From: Bryopsis sp. KO-2023 | Lineage: Eukaryota; Chlorophyta; Ulvophyceae; Bryopsidales; Bryopsidaceae | Assembly: GCA_030272585.1 (NCBI GenBank) | Contig: BSYQ01000014.1 | Coordinates: forward strand, 682,001-746,000 | DNA length: 64,000 nucleotides | Direction: 5' to 3' | Shown: in pieces, positions 7,039-32,883 of the stretch | Layout: every line of letters begins with the position of its first letter | Position numbering within the stretch: the first letter of the stretch is position 1 | Position numbers and translations under genes: made by a program | Notes under the pieces: generated by a model | Databases searched by the model: none | Told to the model about the DNA's origin: nothing | What the model saw: only the letters and a program-made list of their open reading frames with translations

Positions 7039-8153
7039 CGCACATTTGCTGCAGCGCGACCTGCGTCCATTCTGCTTCTGCCTGCCGACGAACTTTCTCC
7101 AGACTTTCGCCTCTGTCTGCGAGGACTGCCACTGCGTCCCCTGCTCTTGCTGCGACTTGCATCACGGCGTTTGCCGTCGTCAAAACCCACACGGTTTCGC
7201 TGGAGGCCATCAACCTCCATGCGGTCACCTGATTGGGGAATATAACGCGGTGTCTGCCGATCGTCAAATCTGCCACGATTGAAACTCTGAGACCTGCCTC
7301 TGCTCTGCGAGCGTCCTCTGCTCTGTGAGCGTCCTCTGCTCTGGGATCGTCCCCTGCTTTGGGACCTGTCCCTGCGTGAACTTTCACGCCTGCCTCTGGG
7401 ACTGCGGCCTCTGCGTCCTTCTCTGCGGTATATCTCCAGAGGTCCTTCCCATGTAGCGGCAAGTGCTATTGCACGCTCCAATTCTGCAGGATCTTCCATT
7501 TCAACCTTAGTGCGCAAACGATCATTCAGACCTTCTATGAAACGAAACAGCTGCTCCCCAGCATTGCTGTCGTTGATCTGCAACATGAGCCTGCGAAAAT
7601 CGTGCACATATTCTGCGACAGACATTCGACCCTGCTTCAGGCGTGACCATTCACGTCTGAAGTCCTTGTTCTCGTTGGTCTTGCCGAACTGCCGTCTGAG
7701 ATCTGCGACTAGTGCGGTCAGATCTGTAGGCAAAGCCCTCTGGCCTGCCATTGCCTCTTCGTAACGACTTCTCCACCATGTTCCTGCAGCACCTCTTAAA
7801 CAGCCTGCAGCCACCAAAACCTGCTGTTCCCTGTCTCTGGTTGCAGTCAGATCATAATATGTCTGCAACTGAACCTGCCACTCGTTCAGAGGAACATCCT
7901 GTGGATCACCATACCAGGAGTCAGGGCCTTTTGCCCTTGCTTTACCCAGAGCTGCCGGCGGATGCTGCTCGGCCAACCTAGTCCGTACTGCGTGCCGGAC
8001 TGCATCGTCCATCTGCGCGTTGACATTAGCGGCGACCTGCCTCAGGTGCAGGATCTCTTCCTGCATCTCTGCCATGCCCCGCCTCAGACCCTGAAGATCG
8101 AACGGATCTGGGGCTGGCGTTCCCATCTGGGGGTGCTCGTCTGTGCCTGACAT
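6984..8153 (-). CDS. gag: Element C gag: capsid/nucleocapsid with RS-type repeats and CCHC knuckle
   Basis: Retrotransposon gag of 389 aa from the ATG at 8,153; the frame is open further upstream but without a better ATG. The central part holds a retrotrans_gag-like capsid region (WYGDPQDVPLNEWQ ... LRRQFGKTNE ... LKQGRMSVAEYVHDFRRL). It is followed by five tandem SQSRGR units and more Arg/Ser-rich sequence, then a zinc knuckle CYNCDKLGHFAVDC. The final codons read GGAAAAC TGA; pol continues in the -1 frame across this site, so GGAAAAC is the likely slip site. The RS-type block is unusual for a gag and resembles splicing-factor RS domains. Confidence 0.9.
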   Translation of the reverse strand: MSGTDEHPQMGTPAPDPFDLQGLRRGMAEMQEEILHLRQVAANVNAQMDDAVRHAVRTRLAEQHPPAALGKARAKGPDSWYGDPQDVPLNEWQVQLQTYYDLTATRDREQQVLVAAGCLRGAAGTWWRSRYEEAMAGQRALPTDLTALVADLRRQFGKTNENKDFRREWSRLKQGRMSVAEYVHDFRRLMLQINDSNAGEQLFRFIEGLNDRLRTKVEMEDPAELERAIALAATWEGPLEIYRREGRRGRSPRGRRESSRRDRSQSRGRSQSRGRSQSRGRSQSRGRSQSFNRGRFDDRQTPRYIPQSGDRMEVDGLQRNRVGFDDGKRRDASRSKSRGRSGSPRRQRRKSGESSSAGRSRMDAGRAAANVRCYNCDKLGHFAVDCQEN

Positions 8154-8714
8154 TCCTCCTGTTCCGCTCACGCCTTTCCTGCGTTGCCCTCTGCGATCTG
8201 TAGATCGGACACTGAGGGTCAGAACAGTCGTAGTATCTGATAATATTACCACTGCGTTCTGCCTTCCTGTGGCCGTGAGGAGGCGCTCTGAGAGGAGGTG
8301 GAGGTACCACTGCCAATGGGTGTCTCACCGGACCCAAAACCTGCACTGGTCTGGGTAACCTGTAAGCATACTATGGATCCGATCACGATCTAATCGGTCG
8401 TGGATTGATCGGTCCGACCGATTAGATCGTGATCGGGTTTTTCCGATCAGATCGATCGCCGATCAAATCGGTTTGGCCGATCATCGATGGAGATCGGCCG
8501 ATCACCAATCTGATCGGCTGACCGATTTAATCGGCCGACTATGAACGGCCGATCACGATCACACCGACCAACATCGGCCGATCAAGCGCCGACAGGGCGA
8601 GGCGCTTGATCGTGATCGTGATCGTGATCGGAGATGCCGATTAGATCGGATCATGATCGGTCAATTGATCGGTCCATCACAAATGCCGAGAAATCACCAC
8701 CCGCAGGTGTTTCT

Positions 8715-10430: not shown

Positions 10431-10893
10431 TGTAAAGACTGCGCTGTAGACTGCGACTCTGAAGCAGTCTGCCAGCCTGAAACAACAGCCTAGAAGGCTG
10501 CAACAAGTTCTGACACGAGAGAGCGGGAGAGAGAGGGTGTTCAACCCCAAAATCGAGTTACAAGAATACCCTGAGGTGCTGCCCAAATACCCTAGGCTGC
10601 ACCTCTGATCCAAACTGATCGTTCAAGGTCCTATCCATCAACATGACCTGACAGTCTGCCTCAGTGTCAGGTCCCCTGTCTGAAACCTTCTGAGCTGCCA
10701 GCCCTGCAGAAAAGCGTCTGCTGAGCTGTCAGCCCCCATTCACAGATCTAAGGGTTCCGCCCTGCTGCAGCAAACCGGCTGCAGCATTGCTGGTTCCCTA
10801 GAACTGCAGGCCTGTCAGTTCCCCTGAACTGCAGGTCTGCCAGTTCCCTGAACTGAGGATCTGACAGTTCCCCTGAACTGTAGAATCCTTACA
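10431..10893 (-). repeat. Element C 5' LTR
   Basis: 463 bp, the same as 349-811 by eye. The right flank is the TSD GTCGT at 10,894-10,898. It should carry the promoter of C, reading to lower coordinates. Confidence 0.95.
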
Positions 10894-14039: not shown

Positions 14040-14218
14040 TGATATGAACCTCTGACTCATCAGTCCGTCCAGAAGTTACAGCTGGACGGGGACGGTTCGA
14101 GATGTGAGATCTCGTACCGTCCCAGAGGCCATATAACGCAGCCTAGCCTTCCCACCTCAGTTCTATCCTTTCGCAGTTAAACTATTGTCTCCCCAATTGT
14201 GACCTCACGTTCATATCA
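14040..14218 (+). repeat. Element A 5' LTR
   Basis: 179 bp. Contains GGCCATATAACGCAG, a possible TATA-like element. Matches 32,707-32,883 except for a few substitutions and the segment TCTCCCCAATTGTG versus TCTCGGTCTGTG. Confidence 0.93.
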
Positions 14219-14250: not shown

Positions 14251-14451
14251 ATGAACGCGGCATCCCAAACGAACCAGAAGCCGGAAGATTTTGGAGCAGC
14301 TTTGGCGGGGCCGTATTGGAAGACAGCAGTATACAGACAGTACGCTTTCTGGACCTCTAACAAAGATTGCGACTACGCAGAAAGCACAGCCTCGAACGAC
14401 CCACAGGACAAACCGACCAAGGACGACGAACCGGCCGAGAACGACGAATGA
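14251..14451 (+). CDS. Element A small leader ORF (66 aa) ending in an ATGA overlap with gag
   Basis: A 66-codon frame with an ATG start, rich in Asp, Glu, Asn and Thr, ending TGA at 14,449-14,451. The gag ATG is at 14,448, so stop and start overlap as ATGA. I do not recognise the peptide. The overlap suggests that ribosomes could end here and restart on gag; that is inference. It may simply be an upstream ORF without a protein function. Confidence 0.4.
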   Translation: MNAASQTNQKPEDFGAALAGPYWKTAVYRQYAFWTSNKDCDYAESTASNDPQDKPTKDDEPAENDE

Positions 14452-16643
14452 ACCACGGGGAGTTGCAACCGTACCAGGTCGTTCAGGCCGAGGATGGGTC
14501 TTCGGACGCCATGTCTCTCGCCACGGCCGAGGACGCGTTGCCCCACGGCAATATGTACGTCCAGCAGAACGTCCAGCACTTCAACAATATCCACCACAAC
14601 GTCCAGGTCGACGTGGAGCACCGGGTGGACGAGCGGCTCAACCAGATCCAGGTCGATGCAGGAGCCTGGGCCGAGAATACGCACGAAGGCCTGAAAGAAG
14701 CGCTCGACCAGATCAGATACGAGAACGCGGTCCTACAAGAAGAGGCCGAGCAGCGGCATCAAGCTCAGCTCGCGCAGCAACGGGCCGAGTTCAACCAGCG
14801 CTTGGAAGATCAGCGCCGCGATCTGGGCCGGCTCACTACCGAGGCCGAACATCGACTCCATCTGTCCCAGCAACGTGCTGTGACCAAAGCCGAAGTCGAG
14901 GTACAACGTGCGGCGGCCAAAGCCGAGCAAGATCTACGGGTCCTGGACGCAGTTACCGAGCGATTGGACCGAGAGTTGCTTTCTACCCGCACTGCGGTGG
15001 CCGAAGTGGACGAGAAGGTGAAGATGGACGACAAGAACCACGGCCAGAAGTTCGAAGAGCTGGTCGAGTTGTGGTCCAAGCAGGCTGTACCCGTACCGCC
15101 TCAAGCGAATGTTCCAGCCATGATGGCAGGGTCACAGACTCAGACTGTGAGCCCTCAAACAGGGACTACGGGGCAGCTGGACCAAGCCGTCCAAATACCA
15201 CCGTTCACGACCCAAGGACCACCCGTCGCACCAGTACCACTTATCGCACCACAACCCGCACCACGACCCGTCATACCAGTTCCCGGACCATCGAGACCAC
15301 CCATCGTACCAGCACCAGGACCACCACGACCACGCGCTCCACCTGTACCGAGGCCAGCCCCAAGACCATTGAACCTCGGAGGAACGCCGTCACAGCCAGT
15401 GCCAGTTCCAGTGCCAGTTCCCCAACCGTCCCTGCAGCCGGACCCGTTGAACTCCGCGGCCCAAGATCCATTCGCAGCAATGGGTTCGTATGCGTCCGTA
15501 GGCCAACAGGACCCGTCAGCCAGGCGACGAGGGAACCGCGGACAAGGAGCCGGCGCTCCAGGAGGAGGAGGCGGGGGCGGCGATGATCCGAACGATGACT
15601 ATGGAGGCTTCGGACCACCACACGGTTCAGGAGGTGGCAGTGGACCACCAGGTGGACCAGGGGGTGGCGGCGGTCCACCAGGGGGACCGGGCGGTGGGGG
15701 AATTCCACCTCATCTTCCTGTTCCACATAGAGGACCAGGTGATCCGGACGGCGACGATGGTGATGATGATGGTGATGGTGGACCAAATCGACGCCGTGAC
15801 CGCGGTGTTGGTCAAGTGTTACGTCAACTGAAACTTCAGATGCCGAAGCCGTTCTCAGGCGATCAGGACGTCGGACCAACCGAGTGGCTACTCCTGATGG
15901 CGCGTTGGCTTCGCGCACACGACATCGAGGAACACCACTGGCTACGCGTACTCAGTGCGCACACCAGCGGAGCCGCGAGTCGATGGATGAACCTCCAGGA
16001 GTTACGACTCGCTGAGGGACGACGTGCGCCATTTCAGAACTGGAACGCGTGGGCCGCTGAGCTCAGGCGTCAGTTCGAACCAACCACGGTCCAGGAACGC
16101 GCTCGCACGGAGTTACGTACCGTACGTCAGTCTGGTACGGTACACGATTATGTGCGGCGTTTCCAGGGCATATGCTTCAGGATACCCGAGATGACGGAGG
16201 CCGAGCAATTCTCTGCTTTCGTCAATGGTCTCCGTGAACCAATCCGGACCCAGGTGGCTGGACACGTACGACATTCCGTGGCCGACGCTGTGGAAATGGC
16301 CGAACGCCTTGATGGCGTCCGAGCACTTCACCCCCAAGGGCACAATCCTGGTCATGGACGCAGATGGGGCCGACGACCAGGCGCCAATCATCCTCGTGGG
16401 CACGGTGGCCAAAACCGAGATCGTGTGAATGCTCTCGGTGCAGGACGCGGATTCCAACGAGGACGGGGACGTGGAGGCGGACGATTTGGTGGCGGACGAG
16501 GTGGCGGTGGACGATTTGGAGGACGAAACAATGGGCAGCAACAAGGGCGAAATCGTACCATACAGTGTTTTTTGTGCAATCAACGCGGACATGGGATCAG
16601 GGAGTGTCCCAAATATGATGCCGCGAAGAAGGCGATAAACTGA
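14448..16643 (+). CDS. gag: Element A gag: coiled coil, Gly/Pro-rich linker, capsid, RGG box, CCHC (731 aa)
   Basis: Structural protein of element A. An N-terminal third (about 30-230) is rich in Glu, Gln and Arg and predicted to be a long coiled coil. A Pro-rich stretch follows (about 230-350), then a Gly/Asp-rich linker. The retrotrans_gag-like capsid domain starts at [14 protein letters not shown] and includes [12 protein letters not shown] and [17 protein letters not shown]. The C-terminus has an RGG/GRGG block and a knuckle [14 protein letters not shown]. Layout and several motifs match the gag of B (LKLQMPRAFNG), so the two are relatives. The ATG at 14,448 is the first in the frame. Another long frame over 14,291-15,586 is a composition shadow. 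Confidence 0.9.
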
Positions 16644-16753: not shown

Positions 16754-19700
16754 ATGGACCATGAGGAACGACAAGACGATGACAATGATGAGTTAGACTT
16801 CGAGCAGCCAGAATGTCCCACAGGGACGCGGCAGAGACGAGCATGGACGCCGTCCGACTCCGAAGTACCGCCAATGGCGACAGAAGTTGCTACAGGCGAA
16901 GCGGACACGAGTGCACACCTGCAGACGTCTTCAAGTGGCGAGCAGGACGTATCCGATAGCGAAAATGGAATGGAACCCCATGACGATACGTCAACTGGGG
17001 ACAAGGGACGATCCGTACAGGACGACAATTTTGACTTTATGGGTCGAGCAGCCTGTGACGGACCCCAAGGGCGATTTACTGGGTTTGAGATCAAAATCAA
17101 AATAGGAGGGAGTCCACTAATCGCGTATGTGGACTCCGGCAGTTGGGAAAATTATGTAAGTGGACGAGTTCAAGCGGAGCTGGACCTCAAGATGGACGGA
17201 GCCAACACCAAACGACTCGTGATGGCGGACGGGACGGAGCGACGTACGCTGGGGCGCATTACGGGGGCGAAGTTCCGGAGTGGCGAAACGCAGTTCCGCT
17301 CGGACTTCGATGTCTTCCCGAACATGGCGTACGACGTCATTCTTGGCCTTCCTTGGCTAGTAGCAGAGAACCCCACACTGGACTTCCGACATCGTACCAT
17401 CAGCGTCAAGCGCGGACAAGCTACCCTCACACTTCCGCTGAAATTTTCAGTGCGGCCCAAGCCGGCACAGGTGTTGAGTGTGGGAGCCGCCATACCCACT
17501 TCGTCATCACTCATTCTACGGGATATGCAGCGAGGCGAATGTGAAGCCGTAATGGTGGTAGTAAACGATGTTGACGACGAAGATGATGCTAACCAACCCG
17601 GACCAGAGCCAAAAGCAACCAGTACCAAGAAAGACGTTCACGACAGTGATGATGTGGCCAAAGTTTTACGCCCGGACCAGCCGGACGGGATCCAGCGACT
17701 CCTCAACATGTACCGACGAGTCTTCGCGTCTGACTTGCCAAAAGGCACGCCGCCGATAAGAAACGGGCACGAATTCGAGATTGAACTCGAACCAGGGACG
17801 AAACCGATATTTCGACCAATGTACAAACTCTCGCCAGCGGAACTGGCGGAAGTGAAGAAGCAGACCGAGTACATGCTCGACCGAGAAATTATCCGGCCGT
17901 CGAAGAGCCCCTGGGGAGCCCCCATCTTATTTGCGGCCAAGAAGGACGGGGGGTTGCGGTTCTGCATCGATTACCGATGGCTGAACCAAAAGACCGTGAA
18001 GAACCGCTACCCCCTGCCCTTGCCGGACGAGTTGCTCGACAGGTTCCAAGGCGCACGGGTGTTTAGTCGACTCGACCTCCGTTCGGGTTACTGGCAGATG
18101 CCAATCCGAACGGAGGACCAATCAAAAACTGCGTTTCGGACGCGGTACGGGCACTACGAATATAAGGTAGTCCCGTTCGGGTTGACAAACGCTCCGCCCC
18201 AGTTTATGTCAATGATTAATGACATATTCCGGGACTTCCATGACCAGTTCCTCGTCGTGTTCCTGGACGACCTAGTCGTCTATTCGAAAACGATGGAAGA
18301 ACACGAGGAGCATCTGAGACTCGTCCTGGAGAAGCTGCGGGAGCATGGACTGTTTGCGAAAGCGTCCAAGTGCGCATTCGCTGTGTCCGAGTTGGACTTC
18401 GTAGGGCACTGGGTCACTGCAAATGGCATTTCGCCGCATCGCAGTAAGACCTCCGCGGTCCGCGACTGGCAGCCGTTACAGAACGTGGCAGAAGTCAGGA
18501 GCTTCCTCGGCCTAGTATCCTACTACAGGCGTTTTATTCGGGAATACGCACGCATCGCGGCCCCGATTCAGATGTTGGTCAAGAAGGACGTCGCATGGCA
18601 ATGGGGTCCTCCTCAGCAGCAGGCGTTCGAGGAACTGAAGATGAAGCTCACCTCGGCCCCAGTTCTGAGGATCCCGGACCCAGCCAAGGCGTACACGGTC
18701 GTCACGGACGCGTCGGACATCGCGTTGGGTGCGACATTGATGCAGGAGGGGGACGACGGCCTCCAGCCCGTTGCTTTTCTCAGTCGCGGCCTCAACCCGG
18801 CCGAGAAGAAGTACTCGGCTTACGAGCGCGAACTACTCGGGATCTCGTACGCCCTGGCTCAGTGGCGTCACTATCTCGAGGGCGCTCCAGGAGGGGTCAC
18901 CGTCCTCACGGACCATCAGCCGGCTACCCACTTTCTCCAGCAAAAGGTGTTGTCTCGTACCCAGACACGATGGCTCGAGTATTTCCAGTCCATCATGCCA
19001 GTCATCAAGTACATCCCAGGACGAAGTAATGTGGTCGCGGACGCGCTTTCCAGGCGCACCCACATCTCGGCAATTTCGGAGGCCAAAATCTCGCCCGGGG
19101 AGGCTCAAGCTTGGCAGGATGCACTGGCGGAAGACCCTATTCTGAGCTCTATTCGGACCAAACTGCAGGCTGGTGGATCCGTTTCTGATTATTCCCTTAG
19201 TCAGGACGGGTTGCTTCTCTACACCAGTCCGAACCCAGGAGCACTACCAAAGGTGGTGGTGCCACGAACGAAACGCCAGGTGATTCTACACGATCACCAC
19301 GATATACCAATGGCCGGTCACCCTGGGGTGGCTCGTACGGCCGACTTGGTGAGCCGAAAGTACTGGTGGCGCGGATGGAGAAGGGCCGTGGACCATTACG
19401 TTCGAACATGCAGCACGTGCCAGGTGATGAAGACGGACAACGCCAAGGCGAAGGGGTTGCTGAACCCATTGCCCGTCCCCACCTACAAGTGGGAACAGGT
19501 CACCACGGACCTCATGACGGACCTTCCAGAGTCCCAGGGGTTCACGGCCGTGGCTGTATTCGTCGATAGGCTCACGAAGTTCTGCAAGTTCGTCCCGTGT
19601 TCCAAGGAAGTGACGGCCCAAGGATACGCTGACATGTTCTTCAAACATGTGTTCCCCACGTTCGGAATACCGAGCGTGATCATCTCGGACCGAGACCCGA

Positions 19701-20584
19701 GGTTCACCAGCCAGTTCTGGAAGGAGCTGTTCCGGTTGCTTGGGTCCTCGTTGAAGATGTCAACAGCGTTCCATCCTCAGACTGACGGACAGTCCGAGGT
19801 TACAATCCGGACCTTGGAGAACTTTCTACGTCCCTACGTGGAAGCAAGGCCGGACGGGTGGGCGAAACTACTGAACACGGCCGAGTTCGCAGCTAACAAC
19901 GCTACGAACGCTTCGACTGGCTACTCGCCGTTCTACCTCATGTACGGCCAGCACCCTCGTGCCCTCGAAGTGTACCGTCCGGAGTCGATTGTGGAAGCGG
20001 CGGACGCAATGGTGGCGCGAATGGATGAGGAGATGAACGAAGCGAAGAAGAACTACAAACAGGCCCAGGACCGCATGGCAGAGAACGCGAACAGGAAGCG
20101 CAGACATGTCGAGTTCCAAGTCGGCCAGGAAGTCTGTCTTCGTTCATCACACATCCCACTGGCAATTACAAAGCACCTGCCCTCGAAGATTCGAAGAAAG
20201 TATGTGGGGCCATTCAAGATCGAGAAGGTGATCTCTCCGGTGGCTTATCGTTTGACGCTACCGAGTACATGGCGCCTGCATCCCACGTTCCACATCTCAA
20301 AGCTGAAGGAGTTCCGTCGTTCGTCCGAGTTCGTACGTGACGTCGAACCAGGACCAGTACTCACGGACGAGTTGACGGGACAGCTTGAGTACGAGGTGGA
20401 GAGTATACTTCGATCAAAGGGAACGGGCAAGCGAAAGAGGTACCTCGTACTATGGAAGGGGTACCCACTACATGAGGCGACGTGGGAGCCAGAGGAGAAC
20501 TTCACGAGTGCGGCTGACCTACTGGCCGACTTCATCGTCAAGGAGGCTCGTACGCGACGCACGCGTGGTCGTAACCGTACCTGA
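16754..20584 (+). CDS. pol: Element A pol: protease, RT, RNase H, integrase, chromodomain (1,276 aa)
   Basis: Own ATG, 110 bases after the gag stop and in a different frame, so gag and pol are not joined by a simple frameshift. Domains in order: acidic N-terminus; aspartic protease ([12 protein letters not shown], then [10 protein letters not shown]); RT ([36 protein letters not shown]); RNase H ([24 protein letters not shown]); integrase (HHCC ending [39 protein letters not shown]); chromodomain at the C-terminus ([21 protein letters not shown]). All catalytic residues are present. The RT motif is FLDD rather than YLDD. Confidence 0.95.
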
Positions 20585-20902: not shown

Positions 20903-22047
20903 ATGGCGACCTTCCTGGAAATGGCCCAAAAGATGCAGACGGAAAAAGAGGAGTTGGAACGCAAGTTGGCGGAGGAAACTACGAGGGCGGAATCGGCGGA
21001 GGAAAAGATCGCAGAATTGGAAGCCGAGTTGGAGAAGGTTAAAGCGGACAAGACGGTCGACGAGCTTAAAACCGAGCTGGAAAAGATCAAAGGAGAAAAA
21101 GATGTGGCCGAGACGGAATTGGAAACGGTCAAGCGTCAGCTCGAGGGCGCAAAGAAGCAGGCGGAGCTGGCGAGTATGCTGCAACGCGGAGCGCTCGACA
21201 GGGAGAACCGAGAGAAGAAATTGAGACAGTCCGACGCGAAGGACGCCCAGGAGAGGATGAAACTCGTGGTACAAGCCGCAGCCGAGGTGGATAACCAGCG
21301 TGTGGCCAGCATTCGCAGGACCCTCGAAGAGGCTTGGACCAGCATCGACGTCACCCTCACCACAGGCACAGATGCCCTTTCGGTCGGACGACCCGCGCAC
21401 GAAGCTTCCGAAGTTGCGCCGACGGTTCCACCGTCCCAGCCATTACAACCTAGTGGCGACGGGACGAACGAGGGATCTCTTCTGTCACCAACGGAACTCT
21501 CTGGCTTCCTGACTACTCCGCGCATCCTTCCACCACCTGAGACCACCACCAAGCCACGTCCAGTGACGCCAGTACCTCGTCCCGACACATGCGCCAGCAG
21601 TGACGACGAGGGACCACCAGCGGAATTGGGACAGCCACTTCCAGTGACGTCTCCACTTCCAAACCGTCCCAGGACAAAGCGCAATCGCATTTTGGACCCC
21701 AGCAGGATTCCACTACGCCATGGGAAGTTCGTCGTACCAGTCCAAGTGGCTACCGAGACGGTTATCCAGGACGAAAGTGGAGGAACGTCAGTCGACACGA
21801 CTTCCACGCCACAACCAGCGAATACCCCCAAGGCGACTCCAAGTACCCCAACGGCGACCACGACAACCCGGACTCCAACCCAGGCTACGGGAGGAACAGC
21901 GGAAGGGGGAGCAATCCCAATATGTCCAGCGTGCTCGGCCACGGGGAGGCCGGTGAGGGAGCAGTACGACCGCGTGATCGGTTGTGGGAAGCACCTCACG
22001 TGCCTCTCCCACAACGCCGGCCTCCGCCTGGCCGCGCGCGCCGTGCG
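20903..22047 (+). pseudogene. Element A ORF3, 5' part: coiled coil and first half of RING-like motif, split by B
   Basis: From an ATG at 20,903 the frame encodes a Lys/Glu-rich coiled coil (about 1-120), a Pro/Thr-rich middle, and then CPAC-x16-CGKHLTC with His three residues later. Element B is inserted after base 22,047. The frame continues in phase at 32,113 to a stop at 32,401, for 478 codons in total including the stop. The apparent stop at 22,102 lies inside B's LTR and is not native. Position, order of parts and Cys/His spacing match ORF3 of B and C. No signal peptide or transmembrane segment is visible. Confidence 0.75.
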
Positions 22048-22467
22048 TGTTAGTCTTTTAGCGCTATACGAGGTAGTTTGGGATAGAGCCGAGGGTGGCT
22101 GACGCATGTGGGTTCACGAGTAAGACAGATTAGACCCAGAGTTTGGGGCATGCGTCAGCGTACTACACTTAGGGGTACTTAAGAGGCCCACTCGTTGTTT
22201 TGACACTCATAGTTACTTTGTAAGAACTCGGGATTCGTGGGATTGGTGTGTTCCCGCTTGTGTGTGTGTTTGTGTGTGTGTGTCTAAGTGTTTGCCTGAC
22301 GCAATCACTTATCCAACCAAGTGCTCTAGTAGCGTTCACAACCGCGCTAGCTAGAGAGTTGTCTAAAGCAACAAACCCCACAAGTATACTTGCGTTAGCC
22401 AGCAAGTTATCACGAATCCAATCAACACAGCCGACCACTATTGCGTCACCCACAAGCTTCACTATCA
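22048..22467 (+). repeat. Element B 5' LTR
   Basis: 420 bp, the same length and by eye the same sequence as 31,688-32,107. Contains a GT-rich run (TGTGTGTGTTTGTG) near 22,260. Confidence 0.95.
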
Positions 22468-22469
22468 AT

Positions 22470-22612: not shown

Positions 22613-25267
22613 ATGGCTGACCGTGAACACGCATTGGCAGTGCGCGAGCCTCAAGTTGAAGAGCCAGGGATTGAACCTGAGTTCGATGAGGAATTGCCTG
22701 ACGCACCCAATGTTGTGTACCAACAAATAAACGTCCAGAACATCCACAATGTCCAGCAAGCAGCTGTCGACATAGACATGGGAGCTGATGCGGAAGCCTT
22801 AAGAGAGGATGTGGATGCGGTCCATGACCGTGTGGACGATTTAGCCCACGGGCTAAGGGGTCACCTGCAGCAAGTTGACCAGACACTGGGGCAGAGGCTA
22901 GCCCATGCTGAGGCCTCTGTGTCGAACCAACTGGCTGGCGCATCAGAGGTGATCGGGCAGGCGCTGGAAACACAGCACCAGCATGCGCAACAGGTTGAGG
23001 CCACACAGCATGCGGTGGTGTCGCAACAGCAGAAGCTGGATTCAGTAGCGGCTCAGCATAGTCGATACGAGCAGAGGCTATTACGCCAAGATATCGACCA
23101 TAGAAAAGAAAGAGCCGAGATCAAAGCTTCTGTGGACGCAATAACGAGGAGAATGGATGCCGCAGACATTCTAGCGGACTCTCGTTTTGCTGACCTAAAA
23201 GAAGCAACTGAAGCATCAGCACTTCAGTTAAAACAACTCTCCGAGTTATCCCTTGTTCAAGGGCGGAGAATTGAAGGCTTATTAGGAACTGTTGCGGATT
23301 CCAACGAAAAAGTCGAACGGACTCTAGAATTGTTTCGGGAGTCCTTGCATAAGCAAGGTGCTGAGGTGAAGCGTTTGCAGAGCTCAAGAGTAGCAATTCA
23401 AAAAGATTTGATTGCCTTGGAGAAAAAGGCATCCAAAACCTGGGATCAGCAGCAAGATGCAGCTGATGTGGTTGCCTTAAGATTATCTGGCCTGGAACGA
23501 AGCATGGAGGATGTGAGTGGCGGAAGTCAGAGTGCCCAAAGTGGAAGTGATGCTCGTGCAGTATCACCAGAGCGTGAAGAATCAACTTCCCCTGAGCCTG
23601 AGGACTCAGCCTTTGGGATGCCACTGCCGAAGAAATCAGTAAAGCAGTTGGCTGCATCATGGCCGCCACTGGACCAGAGCTTCGCGGTAGGAATGGTTGG
23701 GGCAGGAACCTCAACAATACCGGCTCCTCCAGCAGTACAGGTCGAGGAGGGTGAAATTGTTGCTGCAGAAGCACCACCATGCACTGCAGTGGACAGCGCA
23801 CCAGACGTTGATTTCACATTCCCTCAGTTGATACCTCCAAGTACAAGAGCTCAGCCTGGAGTACGCATCTCAGAACCCGACTCTGCCGATGGATCACGTA
23901 GACCCACACGAACTAACCCAAGAGTTCTCTCCTCAGCAGAAGTGTTATATCAAATTGACCTTGAGCGTGCTAAGGCACAGGTCAGAGAGGAGAAAGGAAA
24001 AGAACCCATGCAGATCCCCACACGTACTGGAAGATTGGGACTTGGGTTAAGTGCATTGGGAGCAAGGGTAGAAAATAATCCCTTTGCTGCACTTGGTTCA
24101 TATGAGTCTACTGGTGGACCCAGTCGAGTTCCTCGCATGCGAGGTAACTTTGGAGACCCTGGTGATGACGACCCAGATGATGATGGCGGTGATGATTACC
24201 GCGACAGACGAAACCGCCCACCTTCCCGCATTCCAGGTGCGCCTGATGGCGGAGGAGGTGGTGGCGGCGGTGGAGATGGTGGAGGCGGTGGACCTCCCGG
24301 TGGACCTCCTGGTGGAGGTGGAGGTGGAGGTGGCGCTGGACCAGCAGGCCCAGGACCTCCTAGGCAAGGACAGTGGTTGCCTAGCACCGTCAAGTTGCAA
24401 ATGCCTCGCGCATTTAACGGAAGTGGAGAACCAAAAGCCCGTAAATGGCAAGTGCTCATGACGCGGTACTTGAGAACCTGCGGAGTGCATGAAGCACAGT
24501 GGCAATCGATTATGGCCACTAACCTTTATGGAGCTGCCTCGGATTGGTTAACGATGCAAGAGTTGAAAATTCACCGAGGTGAAAGACCACCCTTCCGTGA
24601 CTGGATGGACTTCATGGATGGCTTAGCTACAGCTTTCGAATTCTCTAGTGATCGAGATGAAGCGTGGCGTGACCTCCATAAACTCAAGCAGACTGGAACC
24701 GTGAAACAGTTCGTCAAAGAGTTTCAGCGGTTAGTCTTGAGGATTCCAGACCTCGAAGAGGATCACCAGTATTTGCTCTTCGTGGATGGACTTAAGAGTG
24801 AAGTTCAGAAGTTAGTCGCAGCAACGGTACCTCGAGATGTCGAGGCCGCCATCATATCCGCCGAACGATTGGAAGCCCTTGGAGTTGGAACACAAGGCCA
24901 AGGAGGGCAAACCAATCAGAAAAAGAAAGGAGTCTGGCGTGGTGGAAGAAAGAAGAAAGGCCAGAATCAGGGTCAGCAGCAGCAGAACCCTACACCACCA
25001 GCCCAAGCACCACCACAAGCTGCCGCAGGAGTGCAACAGCAGCAGCAACAGCAACAAGGACGAGGAGGAGGACGTGGTGGTGGTGGTGGACGTGGACGCG
25101 GTGGTGGTAACCGTGGAAGAGGACAAGCCAATCAGGGAAGACAGAACCCCCAGGGGGGAGGGGGATATAATTGTTATCTTTGTGGAAAGAAGGGTCACCC
25201 TGTGAGGCAATGTCCTAGATTGGAGGAGGTGAAAAACCTCCCCGATGTAAAAAAAATGTTAAACTGA
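22613..25267 (+). CDS. gag: Element B gag: coiled coil, Gly-rich linker, capsid, RGG/polyQ, CCHC (884 aa)
   Basis: Long gag starting at an ATG in a good context (GACCATGG). N-terminal 300 residues are a predicted coiled coil (HGLRGHLQQVDQTLGQRLAH and onward). A Ser/Glu/Pro-rich part and an extreme Gly/Pro linker follow. The capsid region begins LKLQMPRAFNGSGEPKARKW and includes KLKQTGTVKQFVKEFQRLVL. C-terminal features are Gln runs, an RGGG block and a CYLCGKKGHPVRQC knuckle. It is related to the gag of A. The bases around the stop (AAACTGACCG) are the same in A. Confidence 0.93.
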   Translation: MADREHALAVREPQVEEPGIEPEFDEELPDAPNVVYQQINVQNIHNVQQAAVDIDMGADAEALREDVDAVHDRVDDLAHGLRGHLQQVDQTLGQRLAHAEASVSNQLAGASEVIGQALETQHQHAQQVEATQHAVVSQQQKLDSVAAQHSRYEQRLLRQDIDHRKERAEIKASVDAITRRMDAADILADSRFADLKEATEASALQLKQLSELSLVQGRRIEGLLGTVADSNEKVERTLELFRESLHKQGAEVKRLQSSRVAIQKDLIALEKKASKTWDQQQDAADVVALRLSGLERSMEDVSGGSQSAQSGSDARAVSPEREESTSPEPEDSAFGMPLPKKSVKQLAASWPPLDQSFAVGMVGAGTSTIPAPPAVQVEEGEIVAAEAPPCTAVDSAPDVDFTFPQLIPPSTRAQPGVRISEPDSADGSRRPTRTNPRVLSSAEVLYQIDLERAKAQVREEKGKEPMQIPTRTGRLGLGLSALGARVENNPFAALGSYESTGGPSRVPRMRGNFGDPGDDDPDDDGGDDYRDRRNRPPSRIPGAPDGGGGGGGGGDGGGGGPPGGPPGGGGGGGGAGPAGPGPPRQGQWLPSTVKLQMPRAFNGSGEPKARKWQVLMTRYLRTCGVHEAQWQSIMATNLYGAASDWLTMQELKIHRGERPPFRDWMDFMDGLATAFEFSSDRDEAWRDLHKLKQTGTVKQFVKEFQRLVLRIPDLEEDHQYLLFVDGLKSEVQKLVAATVPRDVEAAIISAERLEALGVGTQGQGGQTNQKKKGVWRGGRKKKGQNQGQQQQNPTPPAQAPPQAAAGVQQQQQQQQGRGGGRGGGGGRGRGGGNRGRGQANQGRQNPQGGGGYNCYLCGKKGHPVRQCPRLEEVKNLPDVKKMLN

Positions 25268-25521: not shown

Positions 25522-28500
25522 ATGGACGCGCCTCATGCGTCATCTGCATCTCTTCCCTCTGTTAGTGAATCTGTGGGCTCATTGGAGTCGCAGAGTAGTC
25601 TACAGGAGTCCCTGCCTGCAGACGTAGACGATAGTGGGTCAGAAACAACCCAGCGGTCTACCACAGAGCGAGTTAATGTGTCAGAAGTTCGATCAACTTC
25701 GTCAACCAAGGGTGACACATGCCCTCTGTTAAAAATTCAAGAAGTGCCTGTGAGAGGGTACGAAGTAAAAGCACGGATCAAGACCACGGACCTTTATGCA
25801 TTCATTGATTGTGGAAGTACAGCAAACTATATCAATGATAAGGTAGCGCGTGATCTCGGGTTGTCGATTACACCAAGCTCCAAGAGAGCAATGTTGGCAA
25901 ACGGAGATATTAAAGAACTGGCTGGCAGCTGTAACAACCTCCGAGTAAAGATAGGAGGGCTGAAGTGCAAAATGAAAGCGGATCTGTTCCCAGACCTTGG
26001 TTATGACCTAATATTGGGCATGCCTTGGTTGCAGAAAGAAAACCCCCGCATAGACTTTCAGCAGAATGAGATTTCAGTTTGCAAAAACAGCCAAGTGTTT
26101 CATCTCCCGTTGCGTCATCCAACCCAAGAGAGTATTGAACCTGAACGAAAAGTACAGTCGATACTGCAAGAAGTGCCAGTGACTGAGTGTTCAGCTAAAC
26201 GAATGATGCGTCATCTCAAAACAGAGACAGCATTCATGGTTGTAGTGCAAGAGTCTGAAGAGAAAGCTTTAGGCCAACATGAATTGCCTGACGCAATAGA
26301 GCGAACACAGCCATTCAACACTGAGGATGAGATTGGCAAACTTATTCGTTCAGACACCCCTGCCGAAATTAAAAAGGTGGTAGAAACACACCGTGGTGTG
26401 TTCCCTCGTGATTTACCCCCAGGGATCCCTCCGAAGAGAAAAGGTCATGAGTTTAAGATAGACCTGGAGGATCCAACACCTATCCATCGTCCAATATACA
26501 AGCTTTCACCAGCAGAGCTGGATGAAGTGAAAGCACAAGTGGACTACCTTCTGGAACAGAAGAAAATCAAACCATCCGAGTCCCCTTGGGGCGCGCCAAT
26601 CCTGTTTGTACCGAAAAAGGATGGAGGCTTAAGGATGTGTGTGGATTACAGGTGGATCAATAAGGTGACGGTGAAAAACCGATATCCTTTACCCCTGCCA
26701 GAAGAATTGATGGATAGAGTGTTCAAAGCCAAAGTGTTCTCGAAGTTAGATCTGCGATCAGGCTATTGGCAATTTCCAGTAAGGCCATCTGATACAGATA
26801 AAACAGCGTTCCGCACGAGATACGGTCACTTTGAGTTTTTGGTAGCGCCTTTTGGGCTAACCAATTGCCCAGCGCAATTCCAAACTCTAGTGCAAGACCT
26901 ACTCGCAGAGTTTTTAGATGATTTTGTTGTTGTCTTTATTGATGACATACTCATCTTCTCTGAAAACATGGAACAGCATGCCGAACACTTAGAGAAAGTC
27001 CTGTCGCGACTAGCAGAATATCAGCTTTTTGCTAAGGCAAGTAAAAGTGAGCTGGCTGTCGCAACAGTAGACTATCTTGGCTACCGCATTAGCGGAAGTG
27101 GGTTAAAACCACAGGAACAAAAAGTGAAGGCAGTGAAGGAGTGGAAGGAACTACAGAGTGTTAGCGATGTACGTAGTTTCCTTGGAATGGTTTCATACTA
27201 CAGGAAATTCATTCCCCAGTTTGCACATGTTGCTGGACCACTCCATGACTTAGTGAAAAAAAACCATCCCTGGAGATGGGGACAGGTTGAGCGTGGCGCA
27301 TTCAATGAACTGAAAAAGCGTTTGAGTCAAGCTCCCGTCCTTATTTTTCCAGATGCGTCACTGCCTTACACTGTGATCACTGATGCGTCGAATGAGGCCA
27401 TCGGTGCCGTGTTAACACAGGATCACGGAGAGGGGCTACAGCCAATAGCTTACCTCTCACGTAGATTCAAGCCTGCCGAGCTTAACTATGCACCATACGA
27501 CAAAGAGTTGTGTGCAATATGTTATGCGATGGTGCAGTGGAGACATTATCTAGAAGGTTGTGCGGGTGGAGTAACAGTGTTCACTGACCACCAACCTCTG
27601 ACGCATATTCTGTCGCAGAGGAACCTTTCTAGAACCCAAGCAAGATGGCTTGAGGCGGGGTACCTGACTTCGATCAACCCCAAGATCTCCTATATCAAAG
27701 GCAAGGCTAATGTGTTAGCAGATGCTCTCTCCCGCAGTGTTCCTAAGCCCGTGGAAACTGCGATGAACATTTCCACTTGGCAAGTGCATCAAGCAAGCCA
27801 AGACGAGTGGAAACAAGCCCTCCAAGCTGATAACTCCTTGGTGAAGATATTGCGGAAGCTTGAGAGTGGCGAGGAAGTTGAGGGATATTTCCTCAGAGAG
27901 GGAATACTCTGGACGGTCCCAAAGAGAGGATTAGTCGAGAAAGTGGTGGTTCCTAAAGGCCAGCGCAATAAGATCATGAAGGAGTGCCATGAGACACCTT
28001 CAGCAGGCCATACAGGACCAGCGCGAACAGGAGAAATCCTAGCGCGGCGATATTGGTGGAAGGGGTGGATGAATGAGTTGAAGGCATTTGTGCGCGAATG
28101 CCCTGTGTGCCAACAAATAAAGGCTGACACACAGAAGCCTATGGGCTTACTTCAACCCCTGCCAATACCTGAGCGGAAGTGGGAGCAGATTACCACTGAC
28201 TTGGTGACAGATCTACCAGCATCCAATGGGTTTAGTGCTGTAGCTGTCTTTGTCGATAGACTTACCAAGTTTGTGCATTTCGCCCCATGTACTAAAGAGA
28301 TTACCGCTGCAGGATACGCCCAACTTTTTATCGAACATGTTTACCGCAACCATGGCCTACCTAAAGTGATTGTGTCTGATAGAGACCCTCGCTTTACCAG
28401 CAAGTTCTGGCAGACGCTTTTTAAAGCTCTGGGTACAGAGATTCGTATGAGTACAGCTTACCACCCTCAGACGGATGGGCAGAGTGAGGTTACCATACGT

Positions 28501-29262
28501 ACTCTGGAAAATTTTCTAAGGCCATATGCTGAGAGGTATCCCCATAAGTGGGTTGAGTATTTACCTACAGCAGAGTTTGCAGCAAACAATGCAGTGAATG
28601 CGAGTACAGGGTTCGCACCTGCATACTTGATGTATGGGTACCATCCAGAAACACCAAACATTGGTGGGACGGCAACGCAATTTCAAGTGGAAGCAGTTAA
28701 GACTATGGTAGCACGGATGGCACAGGACTTAGATACCGCAAAAGCATATTACTCTAGAGCACAACACAGAATGTGTGTGAGTGCAAACAAGAAGAGGAAA
28801 GATATTGCTTTTGAAAAAGGGGATAAAGTCCTGATAAAAAGCCGTTTTATTCCGTTGGCTGCTTTGAACAAAGTGAGTCCCAAACTGCGCCGTCGATTTG
28901 TGGGTCCCTTTGAAATTGTGGAGAAAATATCAAAGGTGGCTTACAGAGTTCAACTTCCGGAAACATGGCTCATTCACCCAGTGTTTCATGTTTCTAAGTT
29001 CAAGCGTTATCACGCCTCGAGTGATAACAGCAGGCAGATACAACCTCCAGAAGGAGAGTTGATTGGTAGCGAAGTAGAGTATGAGGTCGAAAATATCCTA
29101 AGGGCTAGAGGTAAACGCAATCGTGAATACCTAGTGCTGTGGAAAGGATACGATCTACTTGACGCTACTTGGGAACCTGAAGCTAATCTGGTTAACGCAC
29201 CAGATATACTTCGCGCATTTAAAGAGAAAGAAAGAAAAGAGTTGCAGAAAGGAAGAGAATAG
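25522..29262 (+). CDS. pol: Element B pol: protease with DCG, RT, RNase H, integrase, chromodomain (1,246 aa)
   Basis: Starts at its own ATG 254 bases after the gag stop and in another frame. The N-terminus is Ser/Glu-rich. The protease motif reads FIDCGSTANYI, giving Asp-Cys-Gly where aspartic proteases nearly always have DSG or DTG; the downstream YDLILGMPWL is normal. RT motifs are LFVPKKDGGLRMCVDYRWIN, PFGLTNCPAQF and FIDD. RNase H (VITDASNEAIGAVL, TDHQPLTH), integrase (HHCC ending [39 protein letters not shown]) and a chromodomain ([20 protein letters not shown]) complete it. Apart from the DCG triad it appears fully intact. Confidence 0.95.
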   Translation: MDAPHASSASLPSVSESVGSLESQSSLQESLPADVDDSGSETTQRSTTERVNVSEVRSTSSTKGDTCPLLKIQEVPVRGYEVKARIKTTDLYAFIDCGSTANYINDKVARDLGLSITPSSKRAMLANGDIKELAGSCNNLRVKIGGLKCKMKADLFPDLGYDLILGMPWLQKENPRIDFQQNEISVCKNSQVFHLPLRHPTQESIEPERKVQSILQEVPVTECSAKRMMRHLKTETAFMVVVQESEEKALGQHELPDAIERTQPFNTEDEIGKLIRSDTPAEIKKVVETHRGVFPRDLPPGIPPKRKGHEFKIDLEDPTPIHRPIYKLSPAELDEVKAQVDYLLEQKKIKPSESPWGAPILFVPKKDGGLRMCVDYRWINKVTVKNRYPLPLPEELMDRVFKAKVFSKLDLRSGYWQFPVRPSDTDKTAFRTRYGHFEFLVAPFGLTNCPAQFQTLVQDLLAEFLDDFVVVFIDDILIFSENMEQHAEHLEKVLSRLAEYQLFAKASKSELAVATVDYLGYRISGSGLKPQEQKVKAVKEWKELQSVSDVRSFLGMVSYYRKFIPQFAHVAGPLHDLVKKNHPWRWGQVERGAFNELKKRLSQAPVLIFPDASLPYTVITDASNEAIGAVLTQDHGEGLQPIAYLSRRFKPAELNYAPYDKELCAICYAMVQWRHYLEGCAGGVTVFTDHQPLTHILSQRNLSRTQARWLEAGYLTSINPKISYIKGKANVLADALSRSVPKPVETAMNISTWQVHQASQDEWKQALQADNSLVKILRKLESGEEVEGYFLREGILWTVPKRGLVEKVVVPKGQRNKIMKECHETPSAGHTGPARTGEILARRYWWKGWMNELKAFVRECPVCQQIKADTQKPMGLLQPLPIPERKWEQITTDLVTDLPASNGFSAVAVFVDRLTKFVHFAPCTKEITAAGYAQLFIEHVYRNHGLPKVIVSDRDPRFTSKFWQTLFKALGTEIRMSTAYHPQTDGQSEVTIRTLENFLRPYAERYPHKWVEYLPTAEFAANNAVNASTGFAPAYLMYGYHPETPNIGGTATQFQVEAVKTMVARMAQDLDTAKAYYSRAQHRMCVSANKKRKDIAFEKGDKVLIKSRFIPLAALNKVSPKLRRRFVGPFEIVEKISKVAYRVQLPETWLIHPVFHVSKFKRYHASSDNSRQIQPPEGELIGSEVEYEVENILRARGKRNREYLVLWKGYDLLDATWEPEANLVNAPDILRAFKEKERKELQKGRE

Positions 29263-29710: not shown

Positions 29711-31492
29711 ATGGCTGCCGACACACCCGCCGCAATTATTGCGAGGTTGGAAGCGGAGGTAGCTCAAAAAGAGGAGGTGCTGCAGAACAATGAGGCCTTA
29801 ACCCGGCAGCTCTCAGAGTTGAGTGACCGGACGAAAGCAGCTGAGGCTGCGAAGGAGGCAGCGGAGAAAGCCAAGGAAAAGGCGGAGGCGGAAAAGAAAG
29901 AAGCGGAGGACAAGACTAAGGTCTTGGAAGAAAAATTGGAAGCCATGAAGCTGAAAAAGCAAAGGTTCCAATCTCACATGATGGCTAACCATCGTGAGAA
30001 TGACCTCCGTAAACAAGCTCTCGGGGGAATGGTAGATCGATTTACCGCGGTAGAGGAAACGCTGCAGCGAGCTGTAGCAACCGCGTGGAGTGCAGCAGCC
30101 AACAACCTTGAGAAGGAATTGGCAGAACAAGAGCTGCAGATCGATTTGCTGGGAGAGTCCCTCAGAGACGGCTCTGAAAAACTTCAAGTGCAGAGCGAAA
30201 CAACGGACAAGATGCTGCGTTTGAACCCGCCGGTACCAGCACCACGGGTACGCGAAGAACTGGATCGCCAAGTCCAAGTTCTGTTGTCAAACGCAACACT
30301 TGATCTGGAACCGTCCAAGGACGATGATGCGGGAGGCTCAAGCAAGGGCAAGGGGAAAGGGAAAAACAAACGCCCAAGCTCGCCGTGTAGGGATGAAGAT
30401 CCACACGGAAAGAGAAGGCGAGAGGACGGTGACGATGAAGGTGGTGAGCCACCGAGGGATCGTATGCCTGGAGATGCAGCAAGAGCCAACTTGTTACTCA
30501 AGTTAAAGGCTGCCGCATTAAAAACTCCAGCACCCTCACAACCAGCGCCAACAGTTCAGACTCCCGGAGATGAGGCTACTGCAATAGCACCGGGGGAGGA
30601 CTTATTCGACATGAGAGAGGAGGAGCTTTTGGACTTGGATTTTAACGAAGAAATTAACTTCGGCAGTCCACCTCCTAGGCTCGAAGGTCCTAGTTCTGAA
30701 CTGGAGGACGGGGAAATCAGGAATGATGAAGGGCCAAGCCAGGTGACAGAGGTTCAGCGTGCGGTCCATCCACCGTTGGAGTTAGCTCCAACAGAAGCAG
30801 CACTTCGGGCTTTCCGAGAAAAGGTTAAGCTCAGAAGACTAAGGGCGGCTGCTCAGGACAAAGTGGATGCTGCACCCAGCGAAGTGAACCTGTCACGGGA
30901 GGATATCGAGGAGGCTTGCAACCCCATCACTGCGTCAGAGAAATGGCCGAAGGTCCAATATACGAACCCCAGGGACCGAGCCTTGCAAAATTACCGCGGC
31001 AACCGGCACTTTCACGAGTTGCCCATGTGCATTTGGTGCGGGAGAAGCCCAATGCAAGCAAGTGCTCAGCGGCTGACGCAGAAGAAGTATTCCGTCCTTC
31101 CTTGTGGGTATCACCTCGTGTGTGATGCTCATTGGTTGGCATACTCGATGCTGGGGCGCATCGTCACGGCGGTCCAAAAAGTCGCGGAAGTGGACAACAA
31201 GTCCATCGCCACCGTCTCCCCATTCTCTCTACCTGCCCATATATTGAAGCTGACACGCTCGACGTTCGAAGAAATCCCTCCGTTCCCAGCTGAGCACGAG
31301 AAGTTGCCACACTGCAACATGTGTGTGAAGCGGCAGCTCAAGGTGTCCGGCATCACAAGGGATCTGCCATTCCTAAAGTCCAAGAGGGTGGCTGCCGCAT
31401 TTGATCCCTGTGTCCGGTATCGTGCAGTGCAGCAAGCGCATGCGCAGGAGCAGCGTGCTATTCAGCAAGCGCAAGCGCCGGAACAGCGTTAA
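29711..31492 (+). CDS. Element B ORF3: coiled coil plus RING-like zinc-motif protein (593 aa)
   Basis: Intact third ORF between pol and the 3' LTR. Residues about 10-90 form a strong Ala/Lys/Glu coiled coil. The middle has a Lys/Gly block that may be a nuclear signal (GKGKGKNKRPSSP, GKRRRED), then an acidic stretch. From about 435 comes CIWC-x21-CGYHLVC with His three residues on (DAH), then 63 residues and CNMC: the same order as a C3H-type RING, C-x2-C-x21-C-x2-H-x2-C-x2-H-x(n)-C-x2-C. The tail has Gln/Ala-rich repeats. No membrane segment is seen. Of the three ORF3 copies it is the longest and best preserved. Known gypsy elements often carry extra ORFs, but I do not know this one. Confidence 0.85.
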   Translation: MAADTPAAIIARLEAEVAQKEEVLQNNEALTRQLSELSDRTKAAEAAKEAAEKAKEKAEAEKKEAEDKTKVLEEKLEAMKLKKQRFQSHMMANHRENDLRKQALGGMVDRFTAVEETLQRAVATAWSAAANNLEKELAEQELQIDLLGESLRDGSEKLQVQSETTDKMLRLNPPVPAPRVREELDRQVQVLLSNATLDLEPSKDDDAGGSSKGKGKGKNKRPSSPCRDEDPHGKRRREDGDDEGGEPPRDRMPGDAARANLLLKLKAAALKTPAPSQPAPTVQTPGDEATAIAPGEDLFDMREEELLDLDFNEEINFGSPPPRLEGPSSELEDGEIRNDEGPSQVTEVQRAVHPPLELAPTEAALRAFREKVKLRRLRAAAQDKVDAAPSEVNLSREDIEEACNPITASEKWPKVQYTNPRDRALQNYRGNRHFHELPMCIWCGRSPMQASAQRLTQKKYSVLPCGYHLVCDAHWLAYSMLGRIVTAVQKVAEVDNKSIATVSPFSLPAHILKLTRSTFEEIPPFPAEHEKLPHCNMCVKRQLKVSGITRDLPFLKSKRVAAAFDPCVRYRAVQQAHAQEQRAIQQAQAPEQR

Positions 31493-31687: not shown

Positions 31688-32107
31688 TGTTAGTCTTTTA
31701 GCGCTATACGAGGTAGTTTGGGATAGAGCCGAGGGTGGCTGACGCATGTGGGTTCACGAGTAAGACAGATTAGACCCAGAGTTTGGGGCATGCGTCAGCG
31801 TACTACACTTAGGGGTACTTAAGAGGCCCACTCGTTGTTTTGACACTCATAGTTACTTTGTAAGAACTCGGGATTCGTGGGATTGGTGTGTTCCCGCTTG
31901 TGTGTGTGTTTGTGTGTGTGTGTCTAAGTGTTTGCCTGACGCAATCACTTATCCAACCAAGTGCTCTAGTAGCGTTCACAACCGCGCTAGCTAGAGAGTT
32001 GTCTAAAGCAACAAACCCCACAAGTATACTTGCGTTAGCCAGCAAGTTATCACGAATCCAATCAACACAGCCGACCACTATTGCGTCACCCACAAGCTTC
32101 ACTATCA
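31688..32107 (+). repeat. Element B 3' LTR
   Basis: 420 bp, identical by eye to 22,048-22,467, followed by TSD GTGCG at 32,108-32,112. Confidence 0.95.
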
Positions 32108-32112
32108 GTGCG

Positions 32113-32401
32113 GTTCCACCGCCAGGACGGGTTTTTCCCGGAACCGGAGGACATACTCCAGGACTCGCGTATCTTGATGCTTGGGGACGACGTCGTCCTG
32201 GTGCCTGGATTGGATGAGCCGTTTCCCGCGAGCGAGTGTCCGGCCTGCTACAAACGCGAGCTCGGTACGGAGTGGACTGGCCGTTTAAAGGACATCATAA
32301 ACGGATACGGGAAATTATACTATGCACGCACCGGTCTCGAACCCCCTCACGTTCCTAAAGGGGGGTCGCGCAAGAGGCGCGCACAGGGGGCACCAGAGTG
32401 A
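32113..32401 (+). pseudogene. Element A ORF3, 3' part: second half of RING-like motif
   Basis: Continues the frame broken at 22,047. It contains the last zinc pair CPAC (SECPACYKRELG), 56 residues after the last Cys before the break (counting across the insertion), and ends with a basic tail (GGSRKRRAQ) and TGA at 32,399-32,401. The ATG-like start within B's LTR is not native. Confidence 0.7.
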
Positions 32402-32706: not shown

Positions 32707-32883
32707 TGATATGAACCTCTGACTCACCAGTCCGTCCAGAAGTTACAGCTGGACGGGGACGGTTCGAGATGTGAGATCTCGTACCGTCCCAGAGGCCATA
32801 TAACGCAGCCTAGCCTTCCCACCTCAGTTCTATCCTTTCGCAGTTAAACTATTGTCTCGGTCTGTGACCTCACGTTCATATCA
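32707..32883 (+). repeat. Element A 3' LTR
   Basis: 177 bp with TGATATGAAC at the start and GTTCATATCA at the end; followed by TSD GCATA (32,884-32,888). Confidence 0.93.

Follow-up and report, generated by a model that had tools for sequence, protein, structure and literature searches.

ORF3 in the window and across the genome

The window, as we call the whole stretch analysed here, comprises 64,000 nucleotides (64 kb) of contig BSYQ01000014.1 from the green alga Bryopsis sp. KO-2023 and contains three complete Ty3/gypsy chromodomain retrotransposons, A, B and C. Each has a gag gene, a pol gene encoding protease, reverse transcriptase (RT), RNase H, integrase and a C-terminal chromodomain, and long terminal repeats (LTRs) with 5-bp target-site duplications (TSDs), the composition of a chromovirus; the gag zinc knuckle passes the Pfam cut-off in C only. 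The LTRs measure 179, 420 and 463 bp in A, B and C, with pair identities of 96.1%, 100% and 100%, and all three elements have a primer-binding-site-like sequence, TGGTTTCGGAG, adjoining the 5′ LTR (starting at 22470 in B). A first-pass annotation had proposed that these elements, despite their different LTRs, each carry an extra sense open reading frame (ORF) between pol and the 3′ LTR. We found the LTRs and the ORFs as it had described them (Table 1), and refer to the latter as ORF3. All encode a coiled coil, a variable linker and a C-terminal Cys/His domain with eight candidate ligands. B lies within ORF3 of A, whose reading resumes at 32113 past B. Young elements are nested in one another: besides B in ORF3 of A (22048-32107 within 20903-32401), a B copy sits in ORF3 of a copy of a further family, D.

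Homologs of ORF3 were found in many other copies. ORF3-B was free of stops in all 74 places scored, at 98-100% identity, a lower bound since the candidates numbered 295. For ORF3-C, 133 matches were listed, and 59 places spanned at least 284 of the 288 residues, none with a stop, at 87-100% identity; ORF3-A had nine long places, one containing a stop and one being the split window copy. The window copy of B encodes 593 amino acids; of seven further copies that were read, six encode 604 and the last, from an upstream ATG, 624. Weaker genome matches led to further subfamilies, 16 of which were compared by one representative sequence each (A, A2-A8, B, D, D2, D3, C, C2-C4); the first-pass annotation was thus right in assigning the ORF to all three window elements, and its count was too low. 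Two loci resembling the L066 subfamily (L068 and L069) were not counted, and four decayed or short ones (L042, L048, L049 and L050) were left out. Family D, found beside a B copy, has an ORF3 of 622 amino acids with a long coil-like part, and a pol with a chromodomain. Orientation was read in A, B, C, A3 and D, and in each of them ORF3 runs in the same sense as pol. At first, L052 and L055 had seemed to show an antisense ORF3 in D. This was rejected: upstream, in the sense orientation, lie a second pol and a gag piece, and the pol that converges has its stop codon inside the D LTR and belongs to elements that host a D insertion, as read from alignments. By the same kind of reading, D apparently inserted into pol of two different elements (L070, L055). 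Locus L055 also shows an exact 99-bp tandem duplication (2404-2600) between ORF3 and the end of the D element.

All eight candidate ligands are retained in all 16 subfamily representatives. The pattern of the A, B and D groups is C1-x2-C2-x(12-21)-C3-x(2,3)-H4-x2-C5-x2-H6-x(47-60)-C7-x2-C8. A His after the fifth ligand had been noted for A and B only, correctly as far as the His goes; C also has a sixth ligand, a Cys, and its group reads C5-x4-C6-x(40-42)-C7. The core C-G-x-H-x2-C is common to the three window elements. Ligand codons are mixed (TGC 61, TGT 39, CAC 20, CAT 8), indicating that the amino acids themselves are what is conserved. Among 61 loci checked (L001-L019, L021-L040, L051-L060, L073-L084), 57 had the full pattern. 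It is interrupted by B in L009 and by an in-frame TAG in L012, the L019 match is truncated, and L073 has Phe as its sixth ligand. In A8, either CVLC or CLSC could be the first Cys pair. Six-frame translation of the window gave the full pattern in ORF3-B and ORF3-C only, that of A being split by B, and shuffling the residues of ORF3-B or ORF3-C produced it in none of 50000 trials each.

The N-terminal sequences are barely comparable across families, and all nine families examined show heptad periodicity there (shuffle p 0.0000-0.0235, an optimistic estimate as the best window per family was tested). With the ligand retention, this agrees with the coiled coil and Cys/His skeleton described at first. 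Each of the nine families has at least one basic cluster, often within the tail. An envelope-like protein is a frequent assumption for the slot after pol, and here we regard it as most improbable: a hydropathy scan found no clear membrane segment in any of the nine families, again as initially described (top 19-residue mean Kyte-Doolittle value 1.39), and the Cys/His domain is of an intracellular type.

We computed the ratio of nonsynonymous to synonymous change (dN/dS) by pooled Nei-Gojobori counts with a codon bootstrap. It was 0.199 (0.153-0.251) for ORF3-A, 0.244 (0.178-0.326) for ORF3-C and 0.052 (0.020-0.108) for ORF3-B, while two wrong-frame readings of the same alignments gave 1.17-3.05. 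The A set held seven copies, 83-100% identical, out of nine long places (L009, split by B, and L012, with one TAG, were dropped), the C set 13 of 59 (the window copy and 12 picked across 87-98% identity), and the B set eight of 74. As a control, the pol tail of A gave 0.289 (0.170-0.431) in six of the seven copies (L014 was unmatched by motif, and L017 contributed only 288 residues), so that constraint on ORF3-A is about equal to that on pol; the control is not divergence-matched, its synonymous difference being 0.057 against 0.177 in ORF3-A. The copies were chosen via protein match, which favours conserved ones, but the shifted-frame and pol controls make it unlikely that this bias explains the low dN/dS. 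ORF3 is under purifying selection, as the first-pass annotation had supposed, and we are confident that it is a selected accessory zinc gene. A lack of ORF3 homologs in other copies and a dN/dS close to 1 had been named beforehand as results that would count against it, and neither was observed.

The zinc part is more constrained than the rest in A (0.089 versus 0.267, the linker being the least constrained part at 0.385) and in C (0.172 versus 0.352). It is not in B (0.103, interval 0-0.47, versus 0.045). The two copies of C2 gave 0.468, and 0.884 in the zinc part, with very few changes. Decayed ORF3 pieces accumulate on one contig (C2, 8.83 of 91.1 Mb), mostly at about 1.6-6.4 Mb; 8/8, 6/9 and 8/17 of the stop-containing ORF3 matches in three genome searches, the first with ORF3-C, fell on it. 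This contig may be a large, old, little-purged, perhaps non-recombining region.

In two Bryopsis gene models (P0004 and P0005), pol pieces are spliced to the coil part of ORF3-B and the Cys/His domain is skipped; since these models fuse element fragments, the annotation probably counts some pieces of retrotransposons as host genes. Elsewhere in the window, positions 12180-13922 hold a remnant gypsy pol (RNase H, integrase and SH3 domain) in which a chromodomain was not found, and 35903-37057 encodes a WD40-repeat protein, probably a host gene adjoining the element cluster. The regions 8535-9159 and 11960-12140, around the 5′ end of C, contain an inverted repeat with 166-nt arms (8654-8819 and 8846-9011) that lie 26 nt apart and are 84% complementary, as well as direct repeats that have diverged.

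Table 1. Coordinates of elements A, B and C and of their ORF3 genes in the 64-kb window
Feature	Position	Strand	Remarks
ORF3 of B	29711..31492	+	593 aa + stop; coiled-coil-like ~7-147, basic/acidic linker, zinc domain 440-538, basic tail
Zinc domain of ORF3-B, ligand C1 to C8	31028..31324	+	C-x2-C-x21-C-x2-H-x2-C-x2-H-x60-C-x2-C
5′ LTR of B	22048..22467	+	420 bp, same as 3′ LTR
3′ LTR of B	31688..32107	+	
gag ORF of B	22613..25267	+	Retrotrans_gag, Ty3_capsid
pol ORF of B	25522..29262	+	protease, RT, RNase H, integrase, chromodomain
TSD GTGCG of B	22043..22047; second copy 32108-32112		inside ORF3 of A
ORF3 of A, first part	20903..22047	+	coiled coil, linker, ligands C1-H6; interrupted by B insertion
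ORF3 of A, remainder	32113..32401	+	ligands C7-C8, basic tail
5′ LTR of A	14040..14218	+	179 bp; TSD GCATA 14035-14039 and 32884-32888
3′ LTR of A	32707..32883	+	96.1% identity to 5′ LTR
gag ORF of A	14367..16643	+	
pol ORF of A	16754..20584	+	chromodomain present
ORF3 of C	1782..2648	-	288 aa + stop
Zinc domain of ORF3-C	1974..2201	-	C-x2-C-x15-C-x2-H-x2-C-x4-C-x41-C-x2-C
pol ORF of C	2836..7038	-	chromodomain present
gag ORF of C	6984..8252	-	
5′ LTR of C	10431..10893	-	463 bp; TSD GTCGT 344-348 and 10894-10898
3′ LTR of C	349..811	-	same as 5′ LTR

The C-terminal domain and the RING finger

The domain of A3 was modelled by AlphaFold2 with a predicted local distance difference test score (pLDDT) of 90.7 and a predicted template modelling score (pTM) of 0.83. 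The model consists of a hairpin, a helix beginning after C5, and a C7-C8 knuckle leading into a helix, and this predicted order of hairpin, helix and second knuckle fits a RING-type cross-brace. A structure lacking a zinc site had been named as an outcome that would speak against the gene; the A3 model, which is metal-free and was judged without inspection of coordinates, appears compatible with zinc sites. The C-group domain, modelled separately, showed a comparable order of elements at a pLDDT of 70.0. Two zinc sites in cross-brace order therefore seem to us rather probable.

RING fingers follow the consensus C-x2-C / C-x(1-3)-H / [CH]-x2-C / C-x2-C with a loop of 4-48 residues between ligands 6 and 7, and in E3 RINGs the E2-contact residues are a hydrophobic residue at C1+2 and a Trp in the central helix. 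The first-pass annotation had read the ligands of A and B as being in RING order, and the order indeed holds in all 16 representatives, with C3-x(2,3)-H4 fitting the consensus. Like RING fingers of the C3HC4 and C3H2C3 kinds, ORF3 would thus have eight Cys/His ligands in cross-brace order, partly similar spacing and a predicted hairpin and helix. Other features depart from the consensus. Ligand 6 is His after x2 in 12 representatives and Cys after x4 in four, where RING fingers have Cys after x2. The C6-C7 loop, 40-42 residues in the four C subfamilies and so within the RING range, is 47-60 in the 12 of the A, B and D groups, exceeding 48 in ten of them. The C group retains the E2-contact residues (L, L, V and L at C1+2, and the helix Trp in 4/4), whereas A, B and D mostly lack them. 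Lys or Arg follows C8 in three of the 16.

Searches of the databases did not place the domain in a described family. In Pfam no family reached its cut-off; the sub-threshold RING hits (Prok-RING_4 at best E 0.032, zf-RING_5 at 0.088, Sina_RING at 8.1) stood beside other zinc families that scored equally weakly. Foldseek and VIA returned no significant PDB match for the predicted domain, and by sequence PDB gave none for A4 and best values of 0.29 for A3 (an Arp2/3 subunit) and 0.62 for A5 (INO80), which we judged to be chance. Among 5.8 billion proteins, only gene models of Bryopsis sp. KO-2023 matched (two for B, one for C, none for A), a search that also missed A's own genome copies and in which absence elsewhere is therefore weak evidence. 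IMG/VR contigs gave no match for A6, the A domain or the B domain. The earlier remark that no described family has this layout thus agrees with Pfam, PDB and the literature searched (open-licence PMC only), where we found no description of this protein.

Given the sixth ligand, the A, B and D loops, the E2-contact residues and the weak Pfam hits, we did not file the domain as a RING. At most a RING-like ligand order is shown. These observations bear on the idea that ORF3 is a RING-type E3 ligase which tags restriction or silencing factors of the host with ubiquitin or SUMO so that they are removed. The ligand order, the C-G-x-H-x2-C core, the sub-threshold RING hits and the L/V at C1+2 with the helix Trp throughout the C group speak for it; the missing RING fold match, the atypical ligand 6, the long loops and the mostly missing E2-contact residues of A, B and D weigh against it, and we hold it to be unlikely for ORF3 as a whole. 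Judging by its residues, E3-type action would be most plausible for the C group. Steering of ubiquitin or SUMO marks and counteraction of host silencing, which the first-pass annotation had offered as roles, are putative.

Elements without ORF3 and the history of the gene

No zinc-pattern ORF after pol was found in 11/11 copies of five other gypsy families of the same genome, which were reached through a lineage termed E and inspected over about 1.4-2.5 kb after pol. These were E itself (L086-L090), an E-like family (one copy, L094), two unplaced families (L091 and L093) and a family of three copies (L092, L095 and L096) that comes nearest to A in its pol tail (56% over 41 residues for L092). 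Other retroelement ORFs occupy part of the post-pol stretch in L092, L093 and L096, for which the evidence of absence is weaker. By RT-RNase H identity, A, B and D group together (58-69%), and C and E are about equally distant from them (44-52%). Absence of ORF3 is thus not confined to a separate lineage: a family like A is affected too. The evidence for selection is independent of this absence, which therefore leaves the odds for the readings of ORF3 function unchanged. Comparison of the L092/L095/L096 family with A would reveal the cost of losing ORF3.

Judging from these relationships, ORF3 probably predates the split of A, B and D, the A-like family having lost it. The gene of C would be either older still, separately acquired or obtained by exchange. 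Separate acquisition, with a convergent zinc pattern in the C group and in the A, B and D groups, is possible in our view, though on the doubtful side. It would agree with a weak profile comparison (E 0.0098, probability 4.2; in a second run E 0.029, probability 1.7), with a C pol roughly equidistant from A/B/D and from E, whose copies show no ORF3, with the different ligand 6, and with a second hairpin after the helix in the weak C model that the A3 model does not have. Against it stand the shared slot, the common succession of coil, linker and domain, an unchanged order of the eight ligands, a similar C-x2-H-x2-C core and predicted elements that are similar up to the helix. Within A, copies L010-L017 differ threefold more at synonymous sites in ORF3 (0.177) than in the pol tail (0.057; pol set one copy fewer), and from this higher difference ORF3 may have been exchanged between A subfamilies.

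Accessory ORFs elsewhere and a possible role

Extra ORFs in this position are known from other LTR retrotransposons. The sense additional ORFs of plant elements (aORF-3S, env-like), as portrayed in parts of a review, occupy the same slot in the same orientation and are conserved across copies as ORF3 is; they are discussed as env-like, some with transmembrane domains, whereas ORF3 has a Cys/His domain and no clear membrane segment, and the main text of that review has no mention of zinc, RING or alga (PMC7264820). The TRP28 ORFs of Retand likewise form a lineage-wide extra gene between pol and the 3′ LTR, and the sections of their description that we drew on propose nucleic-acid-binding regulators, a putative function; unlike ORF3 they are antisense, carry another domain and belong to non-chromovirus elements of flowering plants (PMC11963269). 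The transposase-28 domain (pfam04195) was not hit in the Pfam scans of A-C and D, and ORF3 of A, B, C, A3 and D is sense. Bdelloid rotifer LTR retrotransposons have diverse extra ORF3s (Env, GDSL, DEDDy, TM and CC, the last a type label), with zinc and RING absent from the main text (PMC5408684). The relevant portions of PMC3350952, PMC6338049 and PMC8226300 contained nothing resembling ORF3. We conclude that the kind of slot is known and that the protein encoded in it is new.

The closest functional precedent that we saw, by analogy, is CERV, an extra nuclear protein of Cer1, an LTR retrotransposon of Caenorhabditis elegans. The published account describes a KRKK signal, a possible leucine zipper, a candidate finger rich in Cys whose Cys residues are required for export of unspliced genomic RNA, and no obvious homology outside nematodes (PMC10309623). 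According to the same account, and unlike ORF3, CERV is made from a spliced five-exon mRNA, the first exons of which are in the gag frame, and has helix-hairpin-helix, M and G domains and a C4-type finger (PMC10309623). By this analogy, ORF3 could be a Rev-like nuclear protein that coats or exports unspliced genomic RNA, its coil multimerising and its zinc domain binding RNA or a partner. ORF3 likewise combines a Cys/His domain with basic clusters and a coiled-coil signal, and homologs were found in Bryopsis only; in A, B, C, D and A3 it starts about 190-450 nt beyond the stop codon of pol, so that a spliced message may be needed. Set against this are the C4-type finger versus an eight-ligand domain in RING order, a comparison by layout from the text, and the five pol-ORF3 gaps, in which no common splice acceptor was seen by eye. 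We consider such a function somewhat unlikely.

A distinctly unlikely option is anti-silencing or chromatin targeting, in which ORF3 would bind element DNA or host chromatin, or guide the sites chosen by the chromodomain integrase. It has a precedent in VANC, the anti-silencing proteins of VANDAL transposons, as partial accounts describe them, and it would suit the chromodomain that A, B, C and D have in their pol, the basic clusters, and the N-terminal parts, whose strong divergence among families is expected of sequence-specific factors. No DNA-binding domain was recognised, however, and conservation across families is highest in the zinc domain rather than in the divergent part.

The coil, the basic clusters, the Cys/His domain and the lack of a membrane part together argue for a nuclear accessory protein, and the reading that we tentatively prefer, short of calling it probable, is a nuclear, oligomeric zinc scaffold linking element RNA or cDNA to host nuclear factors. 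The protein would oligomerise via its N-terminal coiled coil and enter the nucleus by means of the basic clusters, which occur in all nine families examined. Its C-terminal domain would fold round two zinc ions in RING order, C1, C2, C5 and H6 or C6 forming site 1 and C3, H4, C7 and C8 site 2, and would offer a protein-interaction surface recruiting host nuclear machinery to element RNA or cDNA. It might act as an E3-type adaptor in the C group, which retains the E2-contact residues, and as a non-enzymatic scaffold in the A, B and D groups.

The function of the accessory genes of plant-lineage LTR retrotransposons is mostly obscure, and they are often labelled env-like. ORF3 has a clear architecture, is under strong selection, is represented by several hundred listed matches and by many subfamilies, and comes with a confident domain model; its host is a green alga that can be cultured and that also has sister families without the gene. 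This makes the question of why elements keep a third gene testable on a small protein. A bolder conjecture, to which we give rather little weight, is that the domain is a two-zinc fold new to PDB, with RING-like order and mounted on oligomerising coils, that serves as a ubiquitin/SUMO effector or a nuclear scaffold against host control, and that the at least 16 subfamilies reflect competition among elements or with the host. If a new zinc fold or an effector of the ubiquitin system were indeed encoded here, it would represent a new type of element-encoded countermeasure.

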